Below are positions 7,069-19,203 of a stretch of DNA of 21,409 nt, in pieces. The DNA comes from a virus. How positions within the stretch are numbered: the first letter of the stretch is position 1; each line of letters starts with the position of its first letter. Location: the IMG/VR virus record IMGVR_UViG_3300032294_000850, positions 1-21,409 of that record; one strand, given 5' to 3'. The position numbers were made by a program, and so were the translations under genes. The notes beneath the pieces were generated by a model. It did not search any database. It was not told where the DNA came from and saw nothing but the letters and a program-made list of their open reading frames with translations.

Positions 7069-7337
7069 TATGAGTCTCCTTTTAAAGCATAATACTCATT
7101 ATGTCCAAACTTTTGAATGAGCATATTTTCAATATGGTGTCTATCATATCCTGATAATATAAGACATATATCAGCTACAGGGTTCTTTTCCTTCATAAGC
7201 CAATTGTAAGACACCTTTCTACTATGCGTATTAGTACCGCATATCTCTATCATGGCCTGGATCATCACGGCCATTAATAATTTACCTTCTGGTGTTAGTA
7301 TAAGTTCTGATCTTAGCGACTCCTTTACCTCTATCAT
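7068..7337 (-). CDS. Hypothetical 89-aa protein
   Basis: A mostly helical soluble protein (LTPEGKLLMAVMIQAMIEIC, then KVSYNWLMKE and GYDRHHIENMLIQKF). It is the first gene of the second half of the minus-strand block, just left of the pqqA gene on the other strand. Only a weak SD (GTAAG) precedes ATG 7337. Family not recognised. Confidence 0.6.
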   Translation of the reverse strand: MIEVKESLRSELILTPEGKLLMAVMIQAMIEICGTNTHSRKVSYNWLMKEKNPVADICLILSGYDRHHIENMLIQKFGHNEYYALKGDS

Positions 7338-7359
7338 TTGCTTACTTTCTTTTAATGTT

Positions 7360-7389
7360 TTTACTGATAGCGAAAATGCACTTTATAGC
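7360..7389 (+). promoter_or_regulatory. Candidate promoter for pqqA
   Basis: TTTACT (7360-7365), 18-nt spacer, TATAGC (7384-7389), each matching 4 of 6 consensus bases. A second -10-like GATAAT at 7391-7396 lacks a good -35. The perfect 10-bp palindrome GCAATATTGC (7403-7412) lies between this site and the SD and could be an operator. Weak evidence, but pqqA is on the opposite strand to its neighbours and needs some promoter. Confidence 0.35.
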
Positions 7390-7435
7390 TGATAATGAAA
7401 TGGCAATATTGCATTAATTAACCGAGGATAATATT

Positions 7436-7507
7436 ATGTGGACAACTCCAGCAGCTACAGAAATGCGTTTTGGCTTTGAAGTCACAATGTACGTAATGAA
7501 CAAATAG
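7436..7507 (+). CDS. pqqA: PqqA, pyrroloquinoline quinone precursor peptide
   Basis: A 23-codon gene, ATG 7436 to TAG 7505-7507. The peptide begins MWTTPA, continues through EMRFGFEVTMY and ends VMNK. This matches PqqA in length, in the MW..PA start, in the R-x-G-x-E-V-T-x-Y core and in the exact spacing of Glu15 and Tyr19, the two residues that PqqE cross-links to build the cofactor PQQ. GAGGA at 7424-7428 is 7 nt upstream of ATG. It is a plus-strand gene lying between two minus-strand genes, and no pqqB-F gene is present, so the phage would supply only the peptide to host PqqB-E. Likely an auxiliary metabolic gene supporting PQQ-dependent alcohol or methanol dehydrogenase during infection (inference). 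Tiny ORFs arise by chance, but this many matching positions plus the SD make chance unlikely. Confidence 0.9.
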   Translation: MWTTPAATEMRFGFEVTMYVMNK

Positions 7508-7516
7508 TGTGTATGG

Positions 7517-7540
7517 GGATGCTCCTAAAAAGGAACATCC
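7517..7540. terminator. Hairpin after pqqA, shared with the 3' end of the opposing SSB-like gene
   Basis: GGATG (7517-7521) pairs with CATCC (7536-7540), and TCCT (7523-7526) with AGGA (7531-7534) around an AAAA loop; one C-A mismatch separates the two stems. It starts 10 nt after the pqqA stop. There is only a pyrimidine-rich tail and no real T-run, so it may stabilise 3' ends or terminate weakly rather than act as a full intrinsic terminator. Confidence 0.5.
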
Positions 7541-7761
7541 TCTTCACCTTCTACTGAAGGGCCACTTGGAGCATACTCACCTTTTGGTGTAATTTTACCT
7601 GTGTAAACAGGTCTTTTAGATCCTTCTTCTACTTCATTCTTAAACAATGCTAATGTATATTCTTTACCTTCTACATTAAGCATTAATGAAATATATTTAC
7701 TTCCTGCTTTACTTTCACGTAGCCAACCTGCAGCTCTGTTACTATTATCATACTCAGCCAT
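7525..7761 (-). CDS. Small SSB-like protein with acidic VPF tail
   Basis: A 78-aa protein with a compact beta-rich domain (AAGWLRESKAGSKYISLMLN, then VEGKEYTLALFKNE) and a C-terminus of EGEEDVPF. The acidic tail ending in a Phe resembles the D-D-D-I-P-F tip by which SSB recruits partner proteins. It lies directly downstream of the exonuclease and annealing protein, where phage recombination operons often carry an SSB. At 78 residues it is shorter than a normal SSB OB fold (about 110), so a minimal OB fold or a DUF736-like protein is possible. The role is an inference from the tail and context. Confidence 0.5.
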   Translation of the reverse strand: MAEYDNSNRAAGWLRESKAGSKYISLMLNVEGKEYTLALFKNEVEEGSKRPVYTGKITPKGEYAPSGPSVEGEEDVPF

Positions 7762-7764
7762 ACT

Positions 7765-8316
7765 TTACTCCTTATTAAAAATTGGTTTTTTAGTCCAGCG
7801 TTTAGGCTCTATGTCATCTTCAACATATTTGATAAACTCTAGCGCTAATGGCGTATACCATTCAAGCCATGCTTTACTTCTATCTACTACTTGTATCTTT
7901 GTTTCAAAAGGTGTCCATATATAAAAATACGCATGAGGCGCTTTACATACTTCCATTTGCATTTGCATTTGAAAGTAATAGCGCTCAGGGATCTCTTTAT
8001 ATATTTCTTGAGTGTAAGGACACTTTATCTCAATTACATTTCCTTGGTAGTACCCATCCGGACTTGCTCCAAATGGTAATTTGTCATGCAGTACAAACTT
8101 ATTGCCAGGCTCTACAATGTCATCAAACTCTTTTTCTAATGCAGATAAAGCAATAGACTCATGAATATTTCCATATTCAGTCATGTCATTGCCTTCAAAT
8201 GGTGGCTCACGTAAAGTCATTTGACGCCATAACTTTTGTCTCTCAAATACAGCAGACCAGGCGACACTAGCCGTAATGACGCTATGACGCCTATTATCAC
8301 TTAAATGAGAACTCAT
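7765..8316 (-). CDS. YqaJ-like viral exonuclease (lambda exonuclease family)
   Basis: A 183-aa PD-(D/E)XK exonuclease with the family motifs in order: an N-terminal basic helix ending ITASVA, YGNIHESIALSALE (E53), GASPDGYY (D87), VIEIKCPYTQ (E96-x-K98) and the YYFQMQMQMEV helix with repeated Gln (116-120). YqaJ/lambda-exo enzymes resect one strand of double-stranded ends to give single strands for the annealing protein. The ATGA-type overlap (4 nt) with the upstream annealing protein gene fits their usual pairing. Length is typical for a minimal family member. Confidence 0.9.
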   Translation of the reverse strand: MSSHLSDNRRHSVITASVAWSAVFERQKLWRQMTLREPPFEGNDMTEYGNIHESIALSALEKEFDDIVEPGNKFVLHDKLPFGASPDGYYQGNVIEIKCPYTQEIYKEIPERYYFQMQMQMEVCKAPHAYFYIWTPFETKIQVVDRSKAWLEWYTPLALEFIKYVEDDIEPKRWTKKPIFNKE

Positions 8317-8831
8317 GCAGACTTCTTAAGTTCGTTAGCAAACTCACGTACTTTTTCTTGTAGCTCTGGTCCAAATGTAAAGAATGCCTTTTTAAGTTCA
8401 CCAGTTCTAGCCGCCTCTGTTAGTGTATCTTTGGCAGCTTTAATTTGATCTTCAGTTACTTCTTGAATAACTGGGTTGTTTTGTTGATAGATAGCATTAA
8501 CTACTTCATTAGCAGATGCAAACTCTGTGCCTCCTAAACCTAATGCACTCAATGCTCTTCCAATTGCAGATGTCTCACAATTTTCGACATAAGATGTGCC
8601 ATTAATTTGGCTAGCCTTTCTAAACTCTTGTGCATGACCTGTAGCAAATGTTTGCACACCTGACTCTGTATGTAATCCTACATAAGCCTTAACAATACAT
8701 TGGTCATTATCAATTTGCACTATTTCTGTTGTTAAAAAGTAATTAGGAAATTGCTCTCTAAATTCTTGTACACGTAATGCTACTGTTTTATATTCTTTAC
8801 CACGTATATTAACTACTCCTTGTTTACTCAT
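8313..8831 (-). CDS. Single-strand DNA annealing protein (ERF/Rad52-like)
   Basis: A 172-aa protein beginning MSKQGVVNIRGKEYKTVALR. It shows the beta-beta-helix core of phage annealing proteins, with FREQFPNYFLTTEIVQ, IVKAYVGL, TGHAQEFRK and the segment YVENCETSAIGRALSALGLG, which is characteristic of ERF/Sak-type proteins. Residues about 125-172 form a helical Lys/Glu-rich tail. ATG 8831 is preceded by AGGAG at 8 nt; the longer frame up to 8921 lies within the neighbouring 46-aa gene. It would anneal single strands made by the adjacent exonuclease for recombination-dependent replication and end repair. Confidence 0.75.
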   Translation of the reverse strand: MSKQGVVNIRGKEYKTVALRVQEFREQFPNYFLTTEIVQIDNDQCIVKAYVGLHTESGVQTFATGHAQEFRKASQINGTSYVENCETSAIGRALSALGLGGTEFASANEVVNAIYQQNNPVIQEVTEDQIKAAKDTLTEAARTGELKKAFFTFGPELQEKVREFANELKKSA

Positions 8832-8964
8832 CCTTACTCTCCTGTAATTGTTTAATTTGTAATTCTCTAATGTAATGTTCTTTTTGATCTGCTTTGTCAT
8901 TTGACTCACGTAGATCTTCATTCATTAATTGTAACTGCTCAATAATTTTATTTAATTCATCCAT
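8824..8964 (-). CDS. 46-aa coiled-coil peptide
   Basis: A short gene from ATG 8964 to TAA 8826-8824. GGAGG lies 6 nt upstream of the ATG, a very strong SD. The product is a continuous charged helix with a heptad pattern (MDELNKIIEQLQLMNEDLRE, later RELQIKQLQ). It overlaps the membrane protein gene upstream by 13 nt and the annealing protein start by 8 nt. Function unknown; such helices often act as adaptors or antagonists by binding a partner. Confidence 0.7.
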   Translation of the reverse strand: MDELNKIIEQLQLMNEDLRESNDKADQKEHYIRELQIKQLQESKDE

Positions 8965-9158
8965 AAGTAACCTCCGTAAATTAAGATGAGTAATAACACT
9001 ATCACAAAAAACCTATTTGATGCAACCATTTCATTTTCAAAACTTTCACCACGGTGATATTCAACACCATAACGTTCTCTATAAGTCCTTGGAGTTTTAA
9101 AGTCCCATTGGTTATACCAAGTATGGTGTTTATCTCTATCCCATCCCCAGTTATCCAT
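8952..9158 (-). CDS. 68-aa C-tail-anchored membrane protein
   Basis: The N-terminal two thirds are soluble and aromatic/Arg-rich (DNWGWDRDKHHTWYNQWDF), and the C-terminus is one membrane span (RFFVIVLLLILIYGGYLW). ATG 9158 is taken because AGGAG then lies 7 nt upstream; ATG 9161 is one codon earlier. The topology suggests a cytoplasmic domain held at the inner membrane. It lies second in the early leftward operon. No family recognised. Confidence 0.65.
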   Translation of the reverse strand: MDNWGWDRDKHHTWYNQWDFKTPRTYRERYGVEYHRGESFENEMVASNRFFVIVLLLILIYGGYLWMN

Positions 9159-9264
9159 CATGCTTCTCCTGTTGTTCTAATTGATATTGCTCTTCTAATT
9201 CTTTTTGACGCCAGAATTCTTGTTGATCTAAATACTCATCATAGTCTAACCATCTTTCGTCCAT
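9151..9264 (-). CDS. 37-aa acidic helical peptide, first gene of leftward operon
   Basis: ATG 9264 is preceded by AAGGAG at 6 nt, and the frame ends at TAA 9153-9151, overlapping the next start. The product is a charged helix rich in Asp, Glu and Gln (DERWLDYDEYLDQQEFWRQK, then ELEEQYQLEQQEK). Being promoter-proximal with a strong SD, it is likely to be expressed early and well. Function unknown. Confidence 0.65.
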   Translation of the reverse strand: MDERWLDYDEYLDQQEFWRQKELEEQYQLEQQEKHDG

Positions 9265-9295
9265 TCTTCTCTCCTTAAAAAAATGTTACAAACGA

Positions 9296-9324
9296 ATGGT
9301 GATCTTGTTGAAATTAAATGTCAA
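9296..9324 (-). promoter_or_regulatory. Candidate leftward early promoter
   Basis: On the minus strand a perfect TTGACA (9324 to 9319) is followed after 17 nt by CACCAT (9301 to 9296), a poor -10 (3 of 6). Transcription would start near 9289, 25 nt before the first leftward gene. The good -35 with a weak -10 could mean activator dependence or that I have the wrong site. Confidence 0.4.
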
Positions 9325-9346
9325 GTAATTTAGCAAAATATTTTTC

Positions 9347-9375
9347 TTGCTCTATTTTTTTGCTAGCAGTATACT
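9347..9375 (+). promoter_or_regulatory. Candidate rightward promoter 1
   Basis: TTGCTC (9347-9352), 17-nt spacer, TATACT (9370-9375; 5 of 6). The palindrome TGCTAGCA (9361-9368) sits inside the spacer just before the -10, as it does in the clamp promoter at 5209-5216. Confidence 0.5.
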
Positions 9376-9396
9376 ACCGCTCTATGGATGATACAG

Positions 9397-9426
9397 TTGA
9401 ATTTTGTAGGAAAGGACGTGTATTAT
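9397..9426 (+). promoter_or_regulatory. Candidate rightward promoter 2
   Basis: TTGAAT (9397-9402), 18-nt spacer, TATTAT (9421-9426; 5 of 6). Direct repeats ACGTGT at 9416-9421 and 9438-9443, 22 bp apart, flank the -10. Either this or promoter 1 would drive the replication operon. Confidence 0.4.
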
Positions 9427-9461
9427 ACCATATTTCAACGTGTTACGCTTAAGGAGAGTGT

Positions 9462-10070
9462 ATGAAAATAAGAAACTGGAGTAAATATCAGCATTACCAT
9501 GACAGATGTCCGCCCTGGATAAAAGTCCATAGATCATTATTAGATGACTTTGAATGGCATAATTTAGATCCATTATCCGCAAAAATGCTTATCAATTTAT
9601 GGTTATTGGCCGCAGAGGATATTGATGGAAATTTACCGTCAGTCGACACTATGGCTTTTAGGTTAAGAATTGAAAAGACTTTATTAGTCAAGTGTTTATC
9701 TTCACTCACGCCATGGTTAGAAGAGCTAGATAGCAACGTGCTAGCAAACATGGAGCAAAGTGGGGGTACAGAGACAGAGACAGAGACAGAGACAGATCCT
9801 GTGGAGCAAGTTTCTATAGAAGAAACTTTCGATAGGTTTTGGAAGTTATATCCGTCTATAAGAAAAGTAGCTAAACAAAAATGTTTTGAGAGATGGAAGG
9901 CTAAAAAGTATTATAAGATAGCTGATCAAATTATAGGTCATGTAGAAACAATGAAACAAAGTAAGCAATGGAAGGATGGTTTCTCGCCAGCGCCCATAAC
10001 GTACATTCAGCAAATGCGTTGGTTAGATGACGTAGAAGTTGAACGTAAGCCATGGGAAGGTGGCATATGA
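9462..10070 (+). CDS. Phage replication initiation protein (lambda O / DnaT-like)
   Basis: A 202-aa protein. Residues 1-90 (RNWSKYQHYHDRCPPWIKVH, LLDDFEWHNL, LINLWLLAAEDIDGNLPS) form the winged-helix-type N-terminal domain common to phage replication proteins, ending in a second helical set. A Thr/Glu linker follows (TETETETE, about 103-111). The C-terminal domain (FDRFWKLYP, AKQKCFERWKAKK, PITYIQQMRW) matches the DnaT-like end of these proteins, which binds the helicase. AAGGAG at 9451-9456 is 5 nt upstream. The next gene is a DnaB-like helicase, so initiator and helicase-loader roles are likely. Confidence 0.75.
   Translation: MKIRNWSKYQHYHDRCPPWIKVHRSLLDDFEWHNLDPLSAKMLINLWLLAAEDIDGNLPSVDTMAFRLRIEKTLLVKCLSSLTPWLEELDSNVLANMEQSGGTETETETETDPVEQVSIEETFDRFWKLYPSIRKVAKQKCFERWKAKKYYKIADQIIGHVETMKQSKQWKDGFSPAPITYIQQMRWLDDVEVERKPWEGGI
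9768..9797 (+). repeat. ACAGAG hexamer tandem repeat
   Basis: Four perfect ACAGAG units (9768-9791) followed by ACAGAT. In frame this gives the Thr-Glu linker of the replication protein. Each slipped unit adds or removes exactly two codons, so length changes stay in frame. Confidence 0.9.
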
Positions 10071-10978
10071 ACATCAATGATGCAATTAGTAAACTGACTG
10101 TTAGTCAACAAGAAGTAAATAACTTTTACAATGGAGAAACTTATGGTAACGAATTTAAAATTAAAAGTGCAGATATTTTTATTGATGATCTCATTAAATA
10201 CTACTCTACTGAAATATATGCTGGCAAGACGCTACCGTGGACTAAAACGCATGATAAATTCCATGTTCGGCCAGGGGAGGTAACATTAGTCACCGGCCCT
10301 AGCGGCCACGGCAAGTCAATGTGGCTTTCACAAGTGATATTGCATCTTATGAAAAACTCTGTATGTTTGGTGAGTAGCTTAGAGATGAGGCCAGTACTAA
10401 CTATGGCACGCATGTTGGCCCAGGCGTTAGGATCACAAGAGCCTACAGATGAATACGTCACTCGTTTCTGTGAGCGTGCTGCGCAAAAACTTTATATCTA
10501 CGATCAGACTGGCGTTACTACATCTGAAGATATGATAGCGACATTATATTGGGGTAAGCATGTCCTCGGAGCTGAGGTCTTTGTGATTGACTCACTAATG
10601 AAGATGGCGGATATAGCGGAAGATAATTATAACGCCCAAAAACTTTTTGCGGACCGTCTCGCTGTGGTGTGTAGAGATCTTAACATACATATTTTTTTAG
10701 TAGCACATACTAGAAAATTATCAGATGAAGAACAGATACCTGACGCTACGGACATCATGGGCAGCTCGCATCTGCGCAACCTTAGCGATAATATCTTATG
10801 TTGCTGGCGCAACCGTTATAAAGAGCGTTTAAAAGACGAGGGTAAAACGCTTGAGGCTGACTTAAAAATTATTCCGGATGCAAAAATATTCGTCCAGAAG
10901 CAGCGTAATTTTCAGTTTGAAGGGTCGTTCAACTTTTGGTATGATCCAAAAGGTTTACGTTACAAGGAGTCTCCATGA
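10067..10978 (+). CDS. DnaB-like replicative helicase (RecA fold)
   Basis: A 303-aa protein with Walker A GPSGHGKS (about 77-84), a SLEM segment after the first core strand (about 104-107), Walker B VFVIDS (D175), LVAHTRK (H214, the sensor-like motif of DnaB/gp4 helicases) and a C-terminal Arg/Lys-rich segment (ILCCWRNRYKER, KQRNFQFEG). It lacks the N-terminal primase-binding domain of full DnaB (about 450 residues), so it is a single-motor-domain helicase. ATG 10067 overlaps the preceding stop (ATGA), with GGAAGG upstream. It should unwind DNA at the phage fork after loading by the O-like protein. Confidence 0.85.
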   Translation: MNINDAISKLTVSQQEVNNFYNGETYGNEFKIKSADIFIDDLIKYYSTEIYAGKTLPWTKTHDKFHVRPGEVTLVTGPSGHGKSMWLSQVILHLMKNSVCLVSSLEMRPVLTMARMLAQALGSQEPTDEYVTRFCERAAQKLYIYDQTGVTTSEDMIATLYWGKHVLGAEVFVIDSLMKMADIAEDNYNAQKLFADRLAVVCRDLNIHIFLVAHTRKLSDEEQIPDATDIMGSSHLRNLSDNILCCWRNRYKERLKDEGKTLEADLKIIPDAKIFVQKQRNFQFEGSFNFWYDPKGLRYKESP

Positions 10979-11172
10979 CCTTAGATAATTTACCAATTAC
11001 AGCTATCACTTCTGTTTATAATGCAGTAGAATATGTTGTGCAAAAACAAGATAAGCCTAAAGATATATTGCCACTAGAAGTAAGGCAAAAGTTTGATAGA
11101 TGGAAACGTGAAGACTTTTACAAAGATGATCATTATAAAGAAATGTGGGATAAAAATTGGATAAACAAATGA
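10975..11172 (+). CDS. Hypothetical 65-aa protein
   Basis: A small charged soluble protein with a Trp/Lys-rich C-terminal half (FDRWKREDFYKDDHYKEMW). It overlaps the helicase stop (ATGA) and its own stop overlaps the next start, so it is translationally coupled within the replication operon. Family not recognised. Confidence 0.6.
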   Translation: MTLDNLPITAITSVYNAVEYVVQKQDKPKDILPLEVRQKFDRWKREDFYKDDHYKEMWDKNWINK

Positions 11173-11348
11173 CAATAAATGAATTTATAAAAGAATGTAA
11201 AAAAGTATTTGGTGACGATATAGAATACAAAGCAACTTCTAAGGACGGACAAATATTTAAAACAAAAGGATGGAACAATAAATATGGCAAAGAGAATGAC
11301 AGTAAAAGAAGTGAATTTCCAAGAGTTCATGGATATGGTCAAAAGTGA
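11169..11348 (+). CDS. Hypothetical 59-aa protein
   Basis: ATG 11169 overlaps the previous stop (ATGA); the upstream in-frame TTG is not needed. The product (MTINEFIKECKKVFGDDIEY at the start) has a helix-strand-strand look and a Lys/Arg-rich end. Its last 65 nt overlap the NinB-like gene in another frame, so the C-terminal tail may be little conserved. Function unknown. Confidence 0.55.
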   Translation: MTINEFIKECKKVFGDDIEYKATSKDGQIFKTKGWNNKYGKENDSKRSEFPRVHGYGQK

Positions 11349-11661
11349 AATTAAAACTAATGGCCATGTTGATGTAAAGTTTTCTGACGGTGGTAAAAAG
11401 TTAAGAAGTAACTCACAGAATGATAAATACTGGGCTATGTTAAAAGAGTTAGGTGACTATCTTGGATACTATGACTATGAACTTCATGAATTATTAACGT
11501 TTCAAAACCTCGCTGAAACTAAAGTAGTAGCTGGACGTCCTATTACACACGTAAGATCAACTACGGATCTTGATACTAACGAATTTTCTGACTACCTTGA
11601 ACAAGTAAGAAGGTTCGGAATTGAATATGGGTTTAGGTTTCCAAGTGATATATCGCAATAG
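11284..11661 (+). CDS. ninB-like: NinB-like recombination protein
   Basis: A 125-aa protein resembling lambda NinB/Orf: KLRSNSQNDKYWAMLKELGD (the RSxxQNxxYWxxL motif), ELHELLTFQNLAETKVV, the segment THVRSTTDLDTNEFSDYLEQ and the closing RRFGIEYGFRFPS. NinB binds SSB and single-stranded DNA and substitutes for RecFOR-type loading in recombination. It fits the recombination genes on the other strand. ATG 11284 has an AAGGA about 12 nt upstream, which is long; M5 is an alternative start. Confidence 0.8.
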   Translation: MAKRMTVKEVNFQEFMDMVKSEIKTNGHVDVKFSDGGKKLRSNSQNDKYWAMLKELGDYLGYYDYELHELLTFQNLAETKVVAGRPITHVRSTTDLDTNEFSDYLEQVRRFGIEYGFRFPSDISQ

Positions 11662-11926
11662 TAAATTACTAAAACTTTTAAGAGAGATCCCATGTCAGTC
11701 ATGCGGTGCTAGTGACGGTACTGTAGTCGCTGCACACCGTAACGAGGGAAAAGGTATGGGTCTCAAAAATTCGGATGCGCTCACCTGTAGTTTATGTTAT
11801 CATTGTCATTATGAATTAGATGCTGGTAACAAACTTACTAAAGATCAAAAGCGTGATATGTGGAATAGAGCTTATGTAAATACCATGCAATATTTATGGG
11901 AACATGACATCATAGGAATTAAATAA
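11627..11926 (+). CDS. YbcO/DUF1364-like zinc nuclease-type protein
   Basis: About 99 aa. The core PCQSCGASDGTVVAAHRNEG, then GMGLKNSDALTCSLCYHCHYELD, matches the YbcO/DUF1364 pattern of C-x2-C, a His, GMG-K-xxD and C-x2-C-x2-CH..LD, a zinc-binding HNH-like fold found in lambdoid nin-type regions. I chose ATG 11627, which overlaps the NinB-like gene by 35 nt; the true start could be further in because no clear SD is seen. Probable nuclease for recombination intermediates, by family. Confidence 0.65.
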   Translation: MGLGFQVIYRNSKLLKLLREIPCQSCGASDGTVVAAHRNEGKGMGLKNSDALTCSLCYHCHYELDAGNKLTKDQKRDMWNRAYVNTMQYLWEHDIIGIK

Positions 11927-12207
11927 TGGGAAAAGGAAGCGCACCAAGACCGTTTACAGATAGACATACTTTTGAAGACAATTGGGATAAGATATTTAAA
12001 AATAAACAGAAAAGTGCTTACACATCACCACACCTAATTGAATATGAACTTAATAAGTCTACAGGTGAGTTAGAACGTTTATACGAAAGTACATCTAAAC
12101 CTAATAAGGATCAATTTAATGGCAGGCAAGAGTCCAACACAACTAACACTAGCGAAACTTCAGAAGGAAAATTACCCACTAGTTCAGATAGTGGAGAAAT
12201 GGAATAG
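11926..12207 (+). CDS. Conserved phage protein beginning MGKGSAPRPF
   Basis: A 93-aa protein whose N-terminus (GKGSAPRPFTDRHTFEDNWD) I recognise from small phage proteins of replication regions; no function is known. The C-terminal 40 residues are polar and Ser/Thr/Glu-rich and look disordered (SNTTNTSETSEGKLPTSSDS). This disordered part is the one that overlaps the next gene by 89 nt, suggesting the second frame shapes its sequence. The start overlaps the previous stop (TAATG), with AGGA upstream. Confidence 0.65.
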   Translation: MGKGSAPRPFTDRHTFEDNWDKIFKNKQKSAYTSPHLIEYELNKSTGELERLYESTSKPNKDQFNGRQESNTTNTSETSEGKLPTSSDSGEME

Positions 12208-12442
12208 CTGGGGTCGAGTGCGTGTTGATCTCTATGGCTGCATTGATGTCCTTGCAATATCTGAAGACGGCAATACTGTTGCTATTCAAACCACGAGTTT
12301 AAGTAATGTCAGCGCAAGGATAAGAAAAATAAAAGACAGTACTGCAATTGGTCACATTAGGAAAGCTGGTTGGATTGTGTTAGTCCACGGATGGTACAAG
12401 AAAAATAATAGATGGCATGTTAAAGAAGTTGATGTCTCATGA
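12119..12442 (+). CDS. PD-(D/E)XK-like phage protein, putative nuclease
   Basis: A 107-aa protein. The pattern SPTQLTLAKLQKEN, VRVDLYGCIDVLAI, TVAIQTTS, ARIRKIKDS, then WIVLVHGWYKK recalls a restriction-nuclease fold: D in the IDVLAI strand, and a Q-x-T strand where E-x-K normally stands. The usual second acidic residue and Lys are missing, so it may be degenerate or bind DNA without cutting. ATG 12119 has AAGGA 8 nt upstream, supporting the 89-nt overlap with the previous gene. The downstream gene is coupled through ATGA. Confidence 0.5.
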   Translation: MAGKSPTQLTLAKLQKENYPLVQIVEKWNSWGRVRVDLYGCIDVLAISEDGNTVAIQTTSLSNVSARIRKIKDSTAIGHIRKAGWIVLVHGWYKKNNRWHVKEVDVS

Positions 12443-12813
12443 AAGTAACAGCAATACAAACAAAAGCATATCGCATGAAAGATATGTTATTAGATGTAAT
12501 AGCTGAAGATGAAATTATTACATGCAAAGAAATAGCAAACCGTGTAGGTTTAAAATTTAATGATATTAAATTTGTAGTCATTAAACTTGTAGAGTGGGAA
12601 TTATTATGTGAGATCAGAGGAGGTAAAAACCTTTTTTATCATAAGCCAAAGAAACATTATCTTCAGGAGCTATACCATCCAATGCCAAACTTTAAAATAT
12701 TAAGTGTTTATAAACATACAGCAGATCATGATAAGCATAGTGTACGTAACCCATACAGAGGCATTGAGTCATTTAATGCTAGCATCCTAGGAATACCTCA
12801 TGATCCATATTGA
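12439..12813 (+). CDS. Winged-helix DNA-binding-like protein
   Basis: A 124-aa protein. Residues about 15-70 (MLLDVIAEDEIITCKEIANR, then VGLKFNDIKFVVIKLVEWEL, then RGGKNLFYH) form a recognisable winged-helix pattern with the recognition helix after VGLKF. The C-terminal half is Tyr/His-rich and unassigned. It overlaps the preceding gene by ATGA and the Q-like gene by 14 nt. Being just before Q, it may be a regulator, but the target is unknown. Confidence 0.6.
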   Translation: MKVTAIQTKAYRMKDMLLDVIAEDEIITCKEIANRVGLKFNDIKFVVIKLVEWELLCEIRGGKNLFYHKPKKHYLQELYHPMPNFKILSVYKHTADHDKHSVRNPYRGIESFNASILGIPHDPY

Positions 12814-13129
12814 TAGACTTATGCAAATATTAGATGACTGGGCCTTATGGATGAAGTCGGATAATCACCGCCTGGGTTATCCATCTAAGTCAGTTGGACT
12901 TTCTTCAGGGGGAGAGTCAACGGTGGACTCGTTTGATGAGATGATAGATATACAAGACCTTTCTAACGTCCATGTAGTCGACTCGGTCATTCATAGTTTA
13001 CCTGGTGAACAACAAGATGCCATATATCACCGCTATTTATATGCTAAAAAGCCTTTGGCTTATGAATACAAGCTAGAATTAGCTATGGATAACCTTTTGA
13101 CCATTGTATCAAAAAGAATTAATGCTTAG
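12800..13129 (+). CDS. Q-like: Antitermination protein Q-like late regulator
   Basis: A 109-aa protein with the Q-type pattern: a first helix LMQILDDWALWMKSDN, the RLGYPSKSVGLSSGG segment, then a helical second half with VDSVIHSLPGEQQDAIYHRY, similar to sigma region 4-like repeats in phage Q proteins. Q proteins bind DNA at a late promoter, load on paused RNA polymerase and let it read through terminators. The gene ends 4 nt before a consensus promoter that is followed by a strong terminator, which is what Q would control. AGGA lies 9 nt upstream of ATG 12800. The family assignment is from motif memory; the promoter context strengthens it. Confidence 0.65.
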   Translation: MIHIDRLMQILDDWALWMKSDNHRLGYPSKSVGLSSGGESTVDSFDEMIDIQDLSNVHVVDSVIHSLPGEQQDAIYHRYLYAKKPLAYEYKLELAMDNLLTIVSKRINA

Positions 13130-13133
13130 CATC

Positions 13134-13161
13134 TTGACAAAACGCATTTCCGTGGTAAAAT
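13134..13161 (+). promoter_or_regulatory. Strong sigma70-type late promoter candidate
   Basis: TTGACA (13134-13139), 16-nt spacer, TAAAAT (13156-13161): 11 of 12 consensus bases. Expected start near 13169. Around the -10 lie two dyads: CGTG (13151-13154)/CACG (13164-13167), and CGTGGT (13151-13156)/ACCACG (13178-13183), candidate binding sites for a regulator such as the adjacent Q-like protein. Confidence 0.8.
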
Positions 13162-13168
13162 ATCACGC

Positions 13169-13236
13169 AATGGGATAACCACGCCCATTAACTCCGTAAC
13201 TCTCCGTAGACCCTACTTTAACCGGTAGGGTTTTTT
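13169..13236 (+). ncRNA. Short two-hairpin leader RNA ending at terminator
   Basis: About 68 nt from the predicted start to the T-run. A 5' hairpin, AATGGG (13169-13174) with CCCATT (13184-13189), begins at the predicted first base. Direct repeats CTCCGTA at 13192-13198 and 13202-13208, exactly 10 nt apart, follow, and then the terminator hairpin. It resembles the short RNA made from lambda pR' in the absence of Q. It could also have its own function as a small RNA. Confidence 0.55.
13210..13236 (+). terminator. Rho-independent terminator before late genes
   Basis: ACCCTAC (13210-13216) pairs perfectly with GTAGGGT (13225-13231) around an 8-nt loop and is followed by TTTTTT (13231-13236). 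It lies about 40 nt downstream of the predicted late transcription start and upstream of all structural genes. Confidence 0.85.
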
Positions 13237-13241
13237 ATTTT

Positions 13242-13451
13242 ATGCGTCCCAAAATTTGCAGTACATGCGGCCAGCCGTATGATGACACCGGTTATGAACA
13301 ATGTCCTGAGTGTCAGTATGATCACACGTTTATAAGGATACCTCATGAAGAAGCCAACAACCAAGGCAGGGAAAGCCAAAAAAGTGTCAAAGGTAATGAA
13401 GGAGTGGAAGGCAGGAACTCTTCACTCAGGAAAAAAAGGTCCAGTAGTTAA
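13242..13451 (+). CDS. Small zinc-ribbon protein
   Basis: A 69-aa protein with C-x2-C (CSTC, residues 6-9) and C-x2-C (CPEC, 21-24), a compact zinc ribbon, followed by a polar Ser/Lys/Arg-rich tail. It begins 6 nt after the terminator T-run and has no normal SD. The last 107 nt overlap the DUF6496-type gene, so the tail is probably shaped by that frame. Function unknown. Confidence 0.6.
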   Translation: MRPKICSTCGQPYDDTGYEQCPECQYDHTFIRIPHEEANNQGRESQKSVKGNEGVEGRNSSLRKKRSSS

Positions 13452-13518
13452 GTCAAAAAAACAAGCCGTAGCTATCGCACTTAGCGAAGCTGGCATGTCT
13501 AAAAAAAAAGGTAAATAG
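13345..13518 (+). CDS. DUF6496-type small basic protein, 57 aa
   Basis: ATG 13345 has AAGGA 6 nt upstream and reads to TAG 13516-13518. The protein shows the conserved run KVSKVMKEWKAGTLHSGKKG, then PVVKSKKQAVAIALSEAGMS, which I recognise as the DUF6496 signature found in many phages. It is strongly basic and Lys-rich. The function is not established; DNA or RNA binding would fit its charge. It overlaps the zinc-ribbon gene in a different frame. Confidence 0.8.
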   Translation: MKKPTTKAGKAKKVSKVMKEWKAGTLHSGKKGPVVKSKKQAVAIALSEAGMSKKKGK

Positions 13519-13520
13519 CT

Positions 13521-13658
13521 ATGATGAAGTCTAATGAATATAAAAAATTAGATAAGCAAGAAGAAGCAATTGAGATGAAAAAGAAAAAGCTCAAGCAAGC
13601 AGAACTTGATAAGATGATCCGTGAAATTGTACAAAACGAAATGAAAAAAGGAAGATAA
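13521..13658 (+). CDS. 45-aa Lys/Glu-rich helical peptide
   Basis: ATG 13521 to TAA 13656-13658, two bases after the previous stop. The product is one charged helix (SNEYKKLDKQEEAIEMKKKK, then AELDKMIREIVQNEMKKG). AAAGG lies upstream at 13508-13512. No family recognised. It sits in a run of tiny basic genes. Confidence 0.6.
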   Translation: MMKSNEYKKLDKQEEAIEMKKKKLKQAELDKMIREIVQNEMKKGR

Positions 13659-13660
13659 TT

Positions 13661-13804
13661 ATGCCAATGGTAAAAACAAAAAGTGGAGTAAAAGCGTTTC
13701 CTTATACAGCAAAAGGTAAAATGGAAGCTAAAGAGTACGCAAAGAAAACAGGTAGCAAAATGGCAGCAAAGCCAATGAAAAAAGGCGCTAAACGTGGCAA
13801 ATAA
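13661..13804 (+). CDS. 47-aa Lys-rich basic protein
   Basis: ATG 13661 with AAGGA 9 nt upstream, to TAA 13802-13804. The sequence includes MVKTKSGVKAFPYTAKGKME and AKEYAKKTGSKM, with a basic tail ending KRGK. Similar small proteins with a KAFPYTAKG motif occur in other phages near structural genes. Very high predicted charge; role unknown. Confidence 0.65.
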   Translation: MPMVKTKSGVKAFPYTAKGKMEAKEYAKKTGSKMAAKPMKKGAKRGK

Positions 13805-13946
13805 GCCAGGTCTATACGCTAACATAGCAGCTAAGAGAGCTAGAATTAAAGCTGGCTCAGGCGAAAAGATGCGTAAACCAGGTACAAAAGGCGCACCTAC
13901 AGCTAAAGCATTTAAACAGTCAGCAAAGACAGCTAAAAAGAAATGA
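13794..13946 (+). CDS. 50-aa basic protein (KPGLYANI motif), GTG start
   Basis: GTG 13794 overlaps the end of the previous gene by 11 nt and the frame runs to TGA 13944-13946. The product contains NKPGLYANIAAKRARIKAGS and GEKMRKPGTKGAP, a pattern I recognise from short phage proteins next to packaging genes. It is strongly basic. No function is known. The start is inferred, because no ATG exists before residue 26. Confidence 0.65.
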   Translation: MANKPGLYANIAAKRARIKAGSGEKMRKPGTKGAPTAKAFKQSAKTAKKK

Positions 13947-14194
13947 TCAAAAAAGGTAAAGAAACGTTTTCAGGTTATAATAAACCTAAGAGAACTCCTA
14001 GTCATCCTACTAAGTCACATGCAGTATTGGCTAAAGAGGGTGACCAGGAAAAACTCATACGCTTTGGTCAAAAAGGCGTAAGTGGTGACAAAACAGATAC
14101 AGCAAGAGCAAAGTCATTCAAAGTAAGACACGCTAAAAATATTGCAAAAGGAAAAATGTCCGCAGCTTATTGGGCTAACAAAGTTAAGTGGTAA
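13943..14194 (+). CDS. DUF6321-like basic phage protein
   Basis: An 83-aa protein with the conserved series ETFSGYNKPKRTPSHPTKSH, AVLAKEGDQEKLIRFGQKGV, KARHA-like RHAKNIAKGKMSAAYWANKV and a final KW. I recognise this from many phages (DUF6321, name from memory). ATGA overlap with the preceding gene. Rich in Lys, His and Gly, so nucleic acid binding is possible. Function not known. Confidence 0.75.
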   Translation: MIKKGKETFSGYNKPKRTPSHPTKSHAVLAKEGDQEKLIRFGQKGVSGDKTDTARAKSFKVRHAKNIAKGKMSAAYWANKVKW

Positions 14195-14895
14195 AACTAG
14201 ATATATACGTAGGATATGATGGCAAGGTAGAACCAGTTGCTTATCATAACTTTTGCCAGTCAGTTATAGAAAAGTCATCTATACCGGTAAGTTTTACACC
14301 ATTAGCACTAAATACTTTAAAAGACTACGAAGAAACACATAAAGACGGTAGCAACGCATTTATTTATTCACGCTTTCTAGTGCCATATCTAAATAACTTT
14401 AAAGGTATCGCACTATTTGTAGATGGCGATATGATATGTAGAACAGATATAGCAGAGATACTAGCAAACTTTGATAATGACGAAGCAGTCAAAGTCGTAA
14501 AGCATAACTACACAACAAAGCATCCTATCAAGTATCTAGGTGCAAAGAACGAAGACTATCCTAAAAAGAATTGGTCAAGCGTAATGTTATGGAATTGTGG
14601 GCATTGGCTCAATAAACAATTAACACCTAAGTTCGTACAAGAACAAACAGGTAAATACCTACACAGGTTTGAATGGCTTAAGTATCCTGAAGAACAAGTA
14701 GGCAAGCTAGACGAAACATGGAACTGGCTAGAAACAGAATACGAATACAACCCAGATGCTAAGTTAGTGCATCACACATTAGGCACACCATGCTTTAAAG
14801 ACTATCAGAATACAGACTATAGTCAAGAATGGTGGGAAACATATCAACGGATGATCTATCCACTTAAAGGTAAAAACAGGGAAAGTGAGTTATAA
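14188..14895 (+). CDS. GT8-like glycosyltransferase
   Basis: A 235-aa protein starting at GTG 14188, overlapping the previous stop. The features are an N-terminal VGYDGKVEPVAY strand, SRFLVPYL, LFVDGDM with the metal-binding D79-x-D81, NWSSVMLWNCG and LVHHTLGTPCF (H195-H196), the order seen in GT8-type glycosyltransferases that use nucleotide sugars and Mn. No membrane segment. Substrate unknown: host surface glycan, virion protein or DNA are all possible. It is a late gene by position, between the small basic genes and the packaging genes. Confidence 0.75.
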   Translation: MVKLDIYVGYDGKVEPVAYHNFCQSVIEKSSIPVSFTPLALNTLKDYEETHKDGSNAFIYSRFLVPYLNNFKGIALFVDGDMICRTDIAEILANFDNDEAVKVVKHNYTTKHPIKYLGAKNEDYPKKNWSSVMLWNCGHWLNKQLTPKFVQEQTGKYLHRFEWLKYPEEQVGKLDETWNWLETEYEYNPDAKLVHHTLGTPCFKDYQNTDYSQEWWETYQRMIYPLKGKNRESEL

Positions 14896-14896
14896 C

Positions 14897-15340
14897 ATGG
14901 CAGATCTAGCTAAACAATTAAGACAATTACAAGATGCCCAAAGACTAAGAGAATTGGCTAACCAATTTGGTTTAGGCCAAGTACCAGCACAAGAGCTTAA
15001 CGCATTAAGGCAGGCATTGCCATTAGTAACAGGAGCAACTATGCTTCCTTCAGTACAAATGCCACAGTACAGTATGCCTTCAGGACAAATGCCTCCAGTA
15101 CCTATGCCTCAATTAGGAAGACAGCCAGGTACATTACCTCCAGCTCAAATGCCAACTATTCCACAAGGCATGACACCGGATGATATGAATGCAATGATGC
15201 GAGCTATGCCTCAAACAGCACCGTCACAAATGTCACCATATATGCAAAACTTAACTAACCCAGGCGCAACAATGCAACAAAACTACGTTGATCCAGCTAT
15301 CATAGAACAAATGTACTATAGAGGGCTATTAAGCCGATAA
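14897..15340 (+). CDS. Pro/Met/Gln-rich low-complexity protein
   Basis: About 147 aa from ATG 14897; GTG 14885, four codons earlier, is an alternative start. Residues 1-45 form a helix (LAKQLRQLQDAQRLRELANQ), and about 50-115 is a low-complexity stretch in which QMP, PMP and MPP units recur (QMPQYSMPSGQMPPVPMPQ). The short end is ordered (VDPAIIEQMYYRGLLSR). Such proteins are seen near phage packaging and head genes but lack known function. Possible scaffold, linker or minor head component, by position only. Confidence 0.6.
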   Translation: MADLAKQLRQLQDAQRLRELANQFGLGQVPAQELNALRQALPLVTGATMLPSVQMPQYSMPSGQMPPVPMPQLGRQPGTLPPAQMPTIPQGMTPDDMNAMMRAMPQTAPSQMSPYMQNLTNPGATMQQNYVDPAIIEQMYYRGLLSR

Positions 15341-15353
15341 TTAAGAGGGCAAC

Positions 15354-15370
15354 CAACCTATAAGGAGTTG
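15354..15370 (+). promoter_or_regulatory. Possible SD-sequestering hairpin before TerS
   Basis: CAACC (15354-15358) can pair with GG-A-GTTG (15364-15370, one bulged A) across a short loop, burying the AAGGAG SD of the small terminase gene. A possible RNA-level brake on translation. The helix is short. Confidence 0.3.
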
Positions 15371-15377
15371 CAAAACA

Positions 15378-15698
15378 ATGGATATTGAAGAACGAAAAAA
15401 ACTAGCAGCAGAACGTAGCTCAGAAGCTAACAAAGGTAATACACATTCTAGTAAAAACAATAGGTTATGGGCGGAAACACTTAGACGTGCTGTCATTCAG
15501 TCAGATGCTGAAAGACTACGTATGATCGCAGAGGCTTTATTAGATAAAGCAGCCTCAGGTGATGTATCCGCTATTAAAGAATTAGGCGATAGACTAGACG
15601 GTAAGTCAGTAGCAACTACAGAGTTGACTGGTGTGGATGGATCTAATTTACCTATAAGCATTGCTATAGACTTTGTAAAGCCAAAAGATGAAGGTTAA
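15378..15698 (+). CDS. terS: Terminase small subunit-like protein (DUF5681-like)
   Basis: A 106-aa protein with an N-terminal basic region (EERKKLAAERSSEANKGNTH), then LWAETLRRAVIQSDAERLRM, ALLDKAASGDVSAIKELGDR and LDGKS. The DVSAIKELGDRLDGKS end is typical of DUF5681-type proteins that lie just before the terminase large subunit. AAGGAG at 15362-15367 gives the SD. The stop overlaps the TerL start by 11 nt. The small subunit recognises phage DNA and activates TerL. Assignment rests on the motif and position. Confidence 0.7.
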   Translation: MDIEERKKLAAERSSEANKGNTHSSKNNRLWAETLRRAVIQSDAERLRMIAEALLDKAASGDVSAIKELGDRLDGKSVATTELTGVDGSNLPISIAIDFVKPKDEG

Positions 15699-16938
15699 TG
15701 CAACCTTTCCTGATAAATTACAGTTTCTCTTTGATCCGTACAGGTACAAGGTAAGCTACGGAGGACGTGGATCTGGCAAGTCATGGTCTTATGCTAGAGC
15801 ATTACTTATACAGGCTGCCAATAAGCCATTGCGTGTACTATGCGCTAGAGAGATACAAAGATCTATTAAGCAGTCGGTTCATACCCTGCTCAACGATCAA
15901 ATACAAGCGTTAGGTTTAGGAGCTTTCTATGAAGTACTGGAAGCAGAGATACGTGGTCTTAACGGTAGTACGTTCAGTTTTACTGGGTTGGCTACTAATA
16001 CTGTGGAGTCCATTAAGTCTTTTGAAGGATGTGATATCGTCTGGGTGGAAGAGGCACAAACAGTATCAAAGAAGTCGTGGGATATTTTAATACCTACAAT
16101 ACGTAAACCAGACTCAGAGATCTGGGTATCATTCAACCCAAATGTAGATACAGACGACACATATACTCGCTTTGTCGTAGAACCGCCAGAGAATGCTAAA
16201 GTAGTCAAAGTTAATTACCAAGATAACCCTTGGTTTCCAGATGTCCTTGAACAGGAACGCTTACACAGTTTAAATACTAACCCTGACTATGCAAATATAT
16301 GGGAAGGTGAATGTAAAGCAGCCGTAGATGGTGCTATATATTCTAACGAAATAAGAGAGGCCCAAGAGGCTGGACGTATTACTAACGTACCTTATGATCC
16401 AATGCTTAAGGTTCATGTAGTAATGGACTTAGGATGGAACGATAGCATGTCAGTTATCCTATGCCAAAAAGGTGTATCAGATCTACGCATCATTGGTTAC
16501 ATAGAAGATGACCATAGAACTTTAGACAGCTATTCATCTCAGTTAAAAGATATGTCATACAATTGGGGAACTATGTACTTACCTCATGACGGACAGTCCA
16601 AAGACTTTAAACATGGTATATCAGCAGAAGATATTATGCGTAAGTTTGGATGGGATGTAAGAATTGTACCTCGTATGGATATAGAAGCCGGCATCAAGAT
16701 AGCACGGATGAACTTCCATAGAGTTTATTTTGATAAGTCAGCTAACAGACTTGTTGACTGTTTAAAACATTATCGCAGATCTATTAACTCTGCAACTAAC
16801 GAACCTGGTGCGCCATTGCATGATGAGTATTCTCATGGAGCAGACGCATTCAGATATTTATGTACCTCTGCAGATAGCATGAAGAATGAGTCATGGACTA
16901 AAGAGAAGATACAATATACAAATAGAGGAATTGTTTAA
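15688..16938 (+). CDS. terL: Terminase large subunit
   Basis: A 416-aa protein. The ATPase domain has Walker A GGRGSGKS (about 25-32) and Walker B IVWVEEA (about 117-123), followed by SFNPN (coupling motif region, 148-152). The nuclease domain has VMDLGW (D247), LPHDGQ (D301) and HDEYSHGADAFRY (about 383-395) as the RNase H-like acidic cluster. This is the PBSX/Terminase_3-6 layout. It packages DNA into procapsids by ATP hydrolysis and cuts it at the ends. The type of packaging (cos or headful) cannot be told from this sequence. Confidence 0.95.
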   Translation: MKVNATFPDKLQFLFDPYRYKVSYGGRGSGKSWSYARALLIQAANKPLRVLCAREIQRSIKQSVHTLLNDQIQALGLGAFYEVLEAEIRGLNGSTFSFTGLATNTVESIKSFEGCDIVWVEEAQTVSKKSWDILIPTIRKPDSEIWVSFNPNVDTDDTYTRFVVEPPENAKVVKVNYQDNPWFPDVLEQERLHSLNTNPDYANIWEGECKAAVDGAIYSNEIREAQEAGRITNVPYDPMLKVHVVMDLGWNDSMSVILCQKGVSDLRIIGYIEDDHRTLDSYSSQLKDMSYNWGTMYLPHDGQSKDFKHGISAEDIMRKFGWDVRIVPRMDIEAGIKIARMNFHRVYFDKSANRLVDCLKHYRRSINSATNEPGAPLHDEYSHGADAFRYLCTSADSMKNESWTKEKIQYTNRGIV

Positions 16939-18941
16939 TGAAGATACAAGACATGGAGATCATTGCGCAGATAGAGGCAGAAGAAAATATTGCCTATGGT
17001 GTAAATGATAGCGCATTATCTAATGACAGAGCAGAAGCAATTGACTATTACTTAGGTCAACCTTTCGGTAATGAAGAAGAAGGTCGTAGCCAAGTTGTAT
17101 CTTATGATGTACAAGACACAATAGAGTCAGCTCTGCCTCAGCTTTTAAAAGTATTTATCTCTGGTGACCAAGTTGTTAGGTTTGAACCAAAAGGCCCAGA
17201 AGATCAAGACGCTGCTGATCAAGAGACTGACTATGTCAACCATATCGTTATGGAAAAGAACGAAGGGTTCAAGATATTCTACGTATGGTTTAAAGACGCA
17301 TTACTATCTAAAAACGGATATGTAAAAGTATATTCAGAAGACGAAGAAGAGGAAGAAGAGTACGAATACGAAGGACTAACAGACGCACAGCTTCAGATGT
17401 TAGCTTCAGATGAAAAGACTGAAGTATTAGAGCATGAAGCTTATCCTGATCCTAGTGTAGACATGAATATGCTCATGGACCAAGCATTAGCTATGGGCCA
17501 AGATCCAGCTACTATTATTCAACCTATGCTACATGATGTTAAGCTTAAGGTTACAGAAAAGAAAACTGAAATTAACATTGAAAACGTAGCACCTGAAAAC
17601 ATGATGGTATCTGTAGAAGTATCAGGTCCTAACTTACAAGATGCACGTTTCGTTCAGCATAGAGAAGTTATGCAGTTAGCTGACATTGCTGAAACATTTG
17701 ACAAGCCACTAGAATACATTAAGTCTATCATGTCAGACCTTCGTGATACATTTGAAGAAGAGTCTAATGCACGTGATATTTATGACGAAGAATATGACAG
17801 AGCTATTGAGTCTAACGAAGCTCTAGTTAAAGACACATACATTAAGTTAGAAGGTAAGAGACACAGAGTGGTAGTGTTAGGCAATACTATCCTATACAAA
17901 GAACCATGCGAGTATGTTCCATTTGCATGTATCACACCAATGATCATGCCACATAGACATATTGGTCGTTCTTATGCTGACTTGACTATGGACATTCAGC
18001 TTATCAAGTCTACACTTATTCGTGGTCAGTTAGATAACATGTATCTAGCTAACAATGGTCGTTATGCTATCTCTGACAGAGTAAACCTAGACGATATGTT
18101 GACAAGCCGTCCAGGTGGTATTGTTCGTGTAGAAGGTGACCCAGGCTCAGGTATTATGCCTTTATCACATCCACCACTACCAGCATCATCATTCGGTATG
18201 GTTGAATACATGGACTCTATGAAAGAAAAGAGAACAGGTATCACAGCATATAACCAAGGCTTAGACTCTAATAGTCTTAACAAGACAGCTACAGGCGTAG
18301 CACAAATTATGTCTGCTGCTCAACAAAGAGTTGAGTTAGTAGCACGTACATTTGCAGAGACAGGTGTTAAAGAGCTATTTAAGTTAGTACATAGACTAGT
18401 AAGAATTACACTTACTAAGCCAGATATTGTACGTATACGTAATAAATGGGTAGAAGTAGATCCAAGAGAATGGGAAGACCGTAAAGACTTATCTATCTCT
18501 GTGGGTTTAGGTGCAGGTAACAAAGATCAACAGTTAGCTCATTTGGCTACTATTTTACAAGCTCAAAAAGAAGCGCTAGCTATTGGTATTACTTCACCAG
18601 AAAAGATCTATAATGCACTATCCAAACTTACACAGAACGCAGGCTTTAAAAACCCAGAAGAGTTCTGGATCAACCCAGCTAATACACCTGCACAAGAAGG
18701 TCAGCAGTCTAAACCTTCAGAGGCTGAGATCATGGTTCAAGGTCAATTAGCTATAGAACAACAAAAAGCGCAAGCTCAACTACAACAAGAGCAAGTACGT
18801 TCTCAAAATGATGTTATAATTGAACGTGAGAAGATAGCAGCTCAAGCTGAGTTAGAACGCTTTAAAGCACAATTAAAAGCAGAAACTGACTTAGCTATTG
18901 CACAAATTAAAGCACAGTCAGGATTAAACTATGGCGGATAA
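16938..18941 (+). CDS. Portal protein (P22-like, podovirus type)
   Basis: A 667-aa protein, close to the 725 residues of P22 gp1. N-terminal ALSNDRAEAIDYYLGQPFGN and VVSYDVQDTIESALPQLLKV, then FKIFYVWFKDALLSKNGYVK, are the typical start of this portal family. The middle has HRHIGRSYADLTMDIQLIKS and the wing/stem region GITAYNQGLDSNSLN, with TATGVAQIM. The C-terminal 120 residues are a Gln/Ala-rich coiled coil (the barrel region). An acidic run EDEEEEEEYEYE lies near residue 140. A dodecamer at one vertex would take DNA from TerL. TAATG overlap with TerL; GAGGA SD. Confidence 0.9.
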   Translation: MKIQDMEIIAQIEAEENIAYGVNDSALSNDRAEAIDYYLGQPFGNEEEGRSQVVSYDVQDTIESALPQLLKVFISGDQVVRFEPKGPEDQDAADQETDYVNHIVMEKNEGFKIFYVWFKDALLSKNGYVKVYSEDEEEEEEYEYEGLTDAQLQMLASDEKTEVLEHEAYPDPSVDMNMLMDQALAMGQDPATIIQPMLHDVKLKVTEKKTEINIENVAPENMMVSVEVSGPNLQDARFVQHREVMQLADIAETFDKPLEYIKSIMSDLRDTFEEESNARDIYDEEYDRAIESNEALVKDTYIKLEGKRHRVVVLGNTILYKEPCEYVPFACITPMIMPHRHIGRSYADLTMDIQLIKSTLIRGQLDNMYLANNGRYAISDRVNLDDMLTSRPGGIVRVEGDPGSGIMPLSHPPLPASSFGMVEYMDSMKEKRTGITAYNQGLDSNSLNKTATGVAQIMSAAQQRVELVARTFAETGVKELFKLVHRLVRITLTKPDIVRIRNKWVEVDPREWEDRKDLSISVGLGAGNKDQQLAHLATILQAQKEALAIGITSPEKIYNALSKLTQNAGFKNPEEFWINPANTPAQEGQQSKPSEAEIMVQGQLAIEQQKAQAQLQQEQVRSQNDVIIEREKIAAQAELERFKAQLKAETDLAIAQIKAQSGLNYGG

Positions 18942-19203
18942 GTCACTAGAAGAAGTAAAACGTGGTGAACAAGCAGCACAAATATTAGACAACCCTATCT
19001 ATAAAGAAGCAATAGATAAGGTGCGTGAGAATATTGTAGCTAGTATGACCAACAGTCCATTAGGTGATGAGAAGACTCATAACCGTTTAGTTATTGCTTT
19101 ACAGTTATTAAACCAAATTAACAAGCAGCTTACAGATGTAATGCAAACAGGTAAGCTCGCAGCCATTCAAACAGATAGGCCTAAGTTTAAGATATTTGGG
19201 TAA
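18931..19203 (+). CDS. Conserved head-region protein, 90 aa
   Basis: A helical soluble protein (SLEEVKRGEQAAQILDNPIY, then IVASMTNSPLGDEKTHNRLV and ALQLLNQINKQLTDV) ending in RPKFKIFG. I recognise it as a typical small protein between portal and scaffold in podovirus-like genomes; its function is not known. It overlaps the portal end by 11 nt, and a strong terminator follows its stop directly, so it ends a transcription unit. Confidence 0.65.
   Translation: MADKSLEEVKRGEQAAQILDNPIYKEAIDKVRENIVASMTNSPLGDEKTHNRLVIALQLLNQINKQLTDVMQTGKLAAIQTDRPKFKIFG

Follow-up and report, generated by a model that had tools for sequence, protein, structure and literature searches.

The stretch of viral DNA analysed here, 21,409 nucleotides of the IMG/VR record IMGVR_UViG_3300032294_000850, from a lake-type phage (hereafter the window), very probably holds a Q-dependent antitermination switch for the late genes, with a compact Q protein and a divergent loading site. 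On the comparative evidence the switch is real, and its mode of action is most likely antitermination by Q. It is set apart from the known Q switches because the family models miss the protein and the expected binding site in the promoter spacer is unrecognisable. The parts of the proposed switch and the genes that it would control are the following:

12800-13129, + strand: Q-like antiterminator open reading frame of 109 aa, predicted to consist of a helix (residues 4-19), a disordered loop (23-43) and four helices of the sigma-region-4 type.
13134-13161, + strand: putative late promoter (pR'-like), with the -35 TTGACA at 13134-13139 and the -10 TAAAAT at 13156-13161, recurring in relatives.
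13168-13169, + strand: predicted transcription start, placed by spacing 7-8 nt after the -10.
13208-13236, + strand: intrinsic terminator (tR'-like), with a 10-bp stem (13208-13217/13224-13233), a 6-nt loop and a U run.
15688-21235, + strand: late genes behind the terminator, with TerL (15688-16938), portal (16938-18941) and major head protein (20282-21235).
19208-19238, + strand: second strong terminator, within the late operon and ahead of the open frame at 19244, also in loci L385 and L387.
21247-21284, + strand: third strong terminator, shortly behind the gene for the major head protein, also in L383, L385 and L387.

The stop codon of the Q-like frame ends at 13129 and is followed by the four nucleotides CATC (13130-13133) and by the TTGACA that begins at 13134, and the spacer of 16 nt ends in TGG (13153-13155) directly before the TAAAAT, in agreement with an earlier note, which had placed the end of the gene 4 nt upstream of a near-perfect promoter. 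The same note had put a strong terminator between this promoter and the head and packaging genes, which is also borne out, given that the intrinsic terminator at 13208-13233 lies ahead of the TerL, portal and capsid genes. In a scan of window positions 1-20000, the promoter scored 11/12, the sole site to do so among 58 sigma70-like sites, and shuffles averaged 69.8 such sites at an equal threshold; as the number of sites is not above that of the shuffles, the case for the promoter rests on its rank, which is first, and not on the count. The terminator has the most pairs among the 15 terminator-like sites of the same positions, and a stricter scan of the whole window returned three terminators on the + strand (13208, 19208 and 21247) and none on the other.

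At the early stage of infection, the RNA polymerase of the host would initiate at the promoter (13134-13161) and stop at the terminator, releasing only a leader RNA of approximately 68 nt. The Q-like protein, accumulating at the end of the early operon, would then be loaded onto the polymerase at a pause some 15-22 nt from the start of the leader, and its flexible N-terminal loop may occupy the RNA exit channel, as in the Q of phage 21, where hairpins would no longer form. Judging by homology, the Q-modified polymerase would pass the leader terminator and the two further strong terminators of the late region.

Three other regions of the window were observed in passing: the + strand at 11284-11926 carries sub-threshold NinB-like and DUF968/YbcO-like frames before Q, reminiscent of the lambdoid nin region; 14188-14895 (+ strand), in the late region, weakly matches family-8 glycosyltransferases; and 4482-5150 (- strand) encodes the central domain of a DNA polymerase III beta subunit, or sliding clamp (PF02767, E 2.7e-13).

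Homologues of this Q are present in several hundred viral contigs, relatives having been confirmed in 124 of the 129 stretches that matched the search pattern in the first scan and in 557 of 567 with the alignment, and, when single copies served as the query, in 136/142 (MW202481), 41/46 (Venkman) and 3/9 (EBPR podovirus), with sets that overlap and with at most 80 relatives per scan taken on. In the collection of bacterial and archaeal genomes, tblastn confirmed no relative among 64 pattern matches. Most relatives are 108-110 aa long, and the identities span 99% down to 31-34%, an EBPR-type relative at 33-34% (L287) still keeping the module of promoter, leader and terminator.

This module was sought in 284 Q-homologue locus entries (several contigs being entered twice), up to 1.3 kb past Q, by choosing the best-scoring promoter and terminator and making no use of the leader sequence. 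Matches were obtained in 251 entries, or in 249 once two spurious ones (L249 and L251) are set aside. The 33 entries that gave no match are made up of six in which the sequence after Q is too short (L044, L055, L058, L120, L129 and L183), L127, in which no module occurs in the 818 nt after Q, L196, whose altered terminator gave no match, and 25 Venkman-like entries, which together with the two spurious ones form a Venkman-like group of 27. The module is therefore carried by 249 of the 257 entries outside this group, usually directly after Q, as in the window, where the gene for Q closes the early operon immediately ahead of the putative late promoter. It amounts to 128 distinct module sequences, and the terminator lies downstream of the promoter in every clade that has the module. 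In at least nine loci (L033, L048, L054, L110, L118, L121, L124, L136 and L285), approximately 600-970 nt of other sequence stand between Q and the kept module. By eye, this insert often contains an open frame resembling a DNA methyltransferase. Four loci (L191, L200, L212 and L240) have two copies of the leader terminator in tandem.

A stricter definition of the module was also applied, which takes a TAWAAT, a -35 with at least 4/6 identities, GG-N8-YG at the right place and a terminator. In the 1.04 Mb of the 284 Q entries it matched 191 times, in every case on the strand of Q and no more than 1.3 kb behind it, and nowhere else. The 120 loci drawn by a partial leader pattern (1.04 Mb), which is too loose in viral contigs and was used solely as a background set, gave two matches, located in the only two loci with a Q homologue, and a single match came from a further 112 loci (0.33 Mb), in the record MW202481, where this Q is present. 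Across the approximately 2.4 Mb searched, the module was found only with this Q family. Such recurrence in relatives is the strongest argument against chance, and, as the sequences are related, its instances are not independent events.

The 27 Venkman-like entries, with a Q homologue and no adjoining module, count against a Q switch. In Venkman, whose record is covered in full by L082, L290 and L291 taken together, the module was found on neither strand. As a separate observation, the late genes of Venkman lie on the opposite strand, and the phages resembling it (L082, L246-L271) keep the Q homologue without the module beside it.

The gene's position alone was judged insufficient for its identification as Q, and the window protein has no PF06530 (none at E 1 or better), PHROG or NCBIfam match; having no match of its own, it is not assigned to PF06530. 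An identity as a T4 glucosyltransferase was set aside as a spurious match at 0.0056, and a profile search of the PDB with the protein found no relative. Among 46 aligned relatives, 13 weakly match PF06530 (Phage_antitermQ; best E 5.4e-4), with scores that, to judge from the E-values, are probably below Pfam's 26-bit cut-off, and 16 weakly match sigma-70 region 4 (best 9.7e-4). QuuD of the Escherichia coli prophage DLP12 is a clear member of PF06530 (3.5e-53) and matches the phage-21 Q (21Q) in the PDB at 7.6e-7, and, between residues 5 and 81, the profile of the 46 members can be aligned with one built from QuuD and seven further Qs (E 2.5e-4, with a probability of only 42.7), the register being such that W14 and W17 stand opposite W11 and W14 of QuuD. 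In the sections of PMC6606751 used here, W26 of 21Q is described as contacting the beta-prime dock, and W17 of the present family may be its counterpart, as traced through the ST64T sequence. The invariant W14 and the conserved loop LGYPSKS..GGEST sit where 21Q has its H1 and its exit-channel loop.

An AlphaFold model made with the 46 sequences (pLDDT 79.9) places helices at residues 4-19, 41-48, 51-66, 69-80 and 88-108 and disorder at 23-43, which corresponds to the plan of the 21Q fold, i.e., an N-terminal helix, a flexible loop and a four-helix part that resembles sigma region 4. The earlier note had proposed a comparison of the predicted structure with known Q proteins, and its outcome speaks for a Q: VIA-align ranked chains of Q21 first, second and fifth (Z 7.2, 6.8 and 5.9) among sigma-region-4 chains, with the rows of other folds at Z 3.5 and below, though Foldseek alone placed 21Q at rank 13 with a non-significant E of 5.2. 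The best Q21 chain has 13% identity over 95 aligned residues at an rmsd of 5.7, which is modest by VIA-align's own note. Taken together, sequence and model are best explained by a very distant relative of the phage-21 Q that is without the extra length of the latter, and the phage-21 fold would, on the same grounds, best explain the protein in preference to the fold of lambda Q. Two GenBank records (MW202481 and MT375522) name relatives antitermination proteins, which is the opinion of their annotators only; the literature searches listed no published description of this Q family, and the term "antitermin" is absent from the main text of PMC9004378 and PMC8163748. One copy (L045:2401-2730) has a single in-frame stop at the otherwise invariant W14, which may be either a sequencing error or a broken gene.

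The site at which phage-21 Q binds consists of direct 6-bp repeats offset by 8, according to the part of PMC6606751 consulted. A binding element of this type (a TGAGCA-type direct repeat between the -35 and the -10) was not recognisable in the window or, in general, in the 128 modules: 6-bp repeats at offset 8 with at least 5/6 identity occur in 12% of the distinct modules versus 4% of shuffles, and the HK639 control has 5/6. Given this, the site itself is not presented here as being of the lambda or the phage-21 type. In clade C, the spacer between the -35 and the -10 is variable, whereas the first 36 transcribed nucleotides are nearly fixed, a contrast that is clearest where the spacer has 18 nt (32 modules), the 16 modules with a 17-nt spacer retaining more of the spacer sequence. 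Loci with an identical C-terminal 103 aa of Q also differ in the spacer, with which a short spacer site remains compatible. An inverted repeat GCAT...ATGC in the spacer was considered and dropped, because by eye its place differs between clades. The conserved putative signals lie in the transcribed leader, which in the window holds the following elements:

13169-13189, + strand: predicted 5'-terminal RNA hairpin, an inverted repeat AAUGGG-N9-CCCAUU.
13171-13179, + strand: TGG-GATAAC, a candidate pause element of the extended -10-like kind, among the first transcribed nucleotides.
13172-13183, + strand: elemental-pause consensus GG-N8-CG, with C-1 at 13182 and G+1 at 13183, for an RNA length of about 14-15.
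13190-13198, + strand: AACTCCGTA, similar to CTCTCCGTA, between the hairpin and the terminator.
13200-13208, + strand: CTCTCCGTA element, between the hairpin and the terminator.

The elemental pause signal is G-10 Y-1 G+1 in the passages of PMC12288461 used here, and a sequence match to it lies near +16, G-11 and G-10 preceding C-1 in the window. Among 66 distinct leaders, GG-N8-YG with the Y 20-23 nt after the -10 occurs in 55, versus 7% of shuffles, again as a match of letters, and the 11 leaders that lack it belong mostly to clade B; in the relatives, this motif fits an elemental pause signal that would act at an RNA length of about 14-17. Several clades have GATAGT, GATAAT or GAGAAT at the place of the -10-like element, 12-18 nt downstream of the -10, and -10-like hexamers that have A2 and T6 are modestly enriched, occurring in 53% of the same leaders versus 34% of shuffles. 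Between the hairpin and the end of the terminator stem, CTCC is present in 105 of the 128 distinct modules; in the window, CTCCGTA occurs twice in this interval (13190-13208).

The 70-nt RNA from the predicted start folds as the 5' hairpin (13169-13189) followed by the terminator, at -18.9 kcal/mol (z -2.2 versus shuffles), and such a hairpin is predicted in most leaders, the folding z averaging -1.3 over 56 segments, one of them spurious. In 24 distinct sequences, mostly from clade A, 93.3% of the cells pair, versus 28-55% with the partner slid, there are 11 two-sided changes, and none of 500 shuffles reaches that pairing. In addition, the loci L122/L123, L118/L119 and L278/L279 share the C-terminal 103 aa of Q within each pair and have different arms that still pair. 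This covariation and these swaps of arms indicate that the pairing matters in that clade, a sister of the window's own. In 21 sequences from the clade of the window, clade C and others, the pairing is 79%, no better than in shuffles, and the innermost varying pair is mismatched four times. A hairpin common to all clades, supported by the set of 24 and unsupported by the set of 21, was thus not retained, and the transcribed arms are unlikely to be a base-specific Q site, since the same three pairs of loci differ in them.

We regard as possible, and rather doubtful, a route in which Q is loaded through the start of the transcribed leader instead of a site between the -35 and the -10, by means of the GG-N8-YG halt and the 5'-terminal RNA hairpin behind the polymerase. 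In this case, the hairpin would be kept by its base pairing and not by its sequence, and would either recruit Q or form a knot that keeps the RNA from slipping back through the Q ring and prevents backtracking. If true, this would be an RNA-assisted loading of a nozzle-type antiterminator. The start of lambda pR' also has an inverted repeat, CAACGA-N13-TCGTTG (L085:1088-1112), so a hairpin at the start may be more general; the same interval has a GATGGGTTAATTCG stretch, much like the GATGGGATAATTACG of the relatives.

The sigma-like features of the protein allow another reading, in which it would be a sigma-region-4-like activator or repressor of the late promoter and the terminator would merely close the early operon or make a small RNA. 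The weak sigma-70 region 4 matches of 16 of the 46 members, the ranking of sigma-region-4 folds just below Q21 and the near-consensus promoter so close to the gene are all in its favour, but a promoter near consensus should need no activator, the terminator follows the promoter in all of the clades that bear the module, and two more terminators follow in the late region. Since W14 and the LGYPSKS..GGEST loop also fall where 21Q has the parts named above, we consider this reading improbable.

Less probable still is that the leader is an RNA device, such as an attenuator, put-like or controlled by the hairpin, or a small RNA with a regulatory role, beside which the protein would be incidental. 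The widespread prediction of the 5' hairpin would suit it, as would the pairing that is kept between same-Q loci with different arms and that covaries in one clade; against it, the module tracks this Q family and occurs nowhere else in the sequence searched, the pairing in the alignment with the window's clade does not exceed that of shuffles, and Rfam gave no match over the leader. Finally, a chance juxtaposition of promoter-like and terminator-like sequences in an AT-rich phage could appeal to the numbers of both kinds of site in the region, which are no higher than in shuffles, but each of the two sites is the best of its kind in 20 kb, and in relatives the two are found together again only behind Q, by which this reading is already contradicted and may be given almost no weight.

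As a Q-dependent switch, the arrangement would carry nozzle-type Q antitermination beyond coliphages and Pseudomonas, into a large group of podovirus-like phages from aquatic habitats, most of them uncultivated, whose Q has only some 109 aa. How Q finds the polymerase becomes directly testable with the natural variants, in which spacers and hairpins differ while Q stays the same, and Q with its module would provide a sequence handle for annotating the starts of late operons in metagenomic phages.

With lambda, the window shares the order of the parts (Q, pR', tR'), and of the lambda-type switch proposed in the earlier note it is this order, continued by the late genes, together with its recurrence, that holds; the protein is better explained by a fold of the 21Q type, and, the Q-binding element being unrecognisable, the site is not assigned to the lambda type. 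The lambda terminator lies at about +194, much further from the start than that of the window, and a pause sequence in lambda pR' was reportedly described by Bird et al. in 2016. By our own reading of L085, lambda pR' has a G-10 Y-1 G+1-type pause site at about +16, similar to the one described above, and the -10-like element is at +1 to +6 in lambda, while the best candidate here is at about +6 to +11. The pause length at lambda pR' is roughly 16 nt in the portion of PMC4604602 used, the known Qs are loaded where the polymerase pauses, roughly at +14 to +17 (PMC6606751 and PMC4604602, in the parts consulted), and lambda Q differs in fold (PMC6606751, same sections).

With QuuD and PF06530, the family shares a profile alignment in register over residues 5-81, the tryptophans included, and it differs in that the window protein has no PF06530 match. 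AlpA of Pseudomonas aeruginosa, which acts with the alpB promoter and tB, has a 21Q-like fold and a binding element together with a -10-like element, as given in part of PMC9371919; it differs in belonging to a bacterial programme and in a binding element mapped in the spacer, where none was seen here. Its terminators begin 54 and 26 nt downstream of the start, according to the sections of PMC7969949 used.

There is also a close resemblance in arrangement to phage 21 (6JNX, 6P18), HK639 and ST64T, all of which have Q, promoter, short leader and terminator. The 21Q protein has the sigma-region-4-like fold and the flexible N-terminal loop (PMC6606751, in the part used), but it has 162 aa, in contrast with the 108-110 aa of most relatives, the identity to it is low, and the TGAGCA-type direct repeat of the phage-21 spacer is not recognisable here. 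In HK639, which has a 21-like Q, the leader is about 68 nt by our own count, equal to that of the window, the annotated terminator lying 66-90 nt after Q, and in ST64T, of the 21 type, it is about 47 nt, also by our own count; in both, the -35 falls, by our own reading, inside the 3' end of Q. The earlier note was thus right that the leader, at about 68 nt, is shorter than that of lambda, but the special problem that it saw for the loading of Q falls away, because, with HK639 and ST64T at these lengths, the terminators of AlpA so close and the known Qs loading at about +14 to +17, a short leader is ordinary for switches of this kind.
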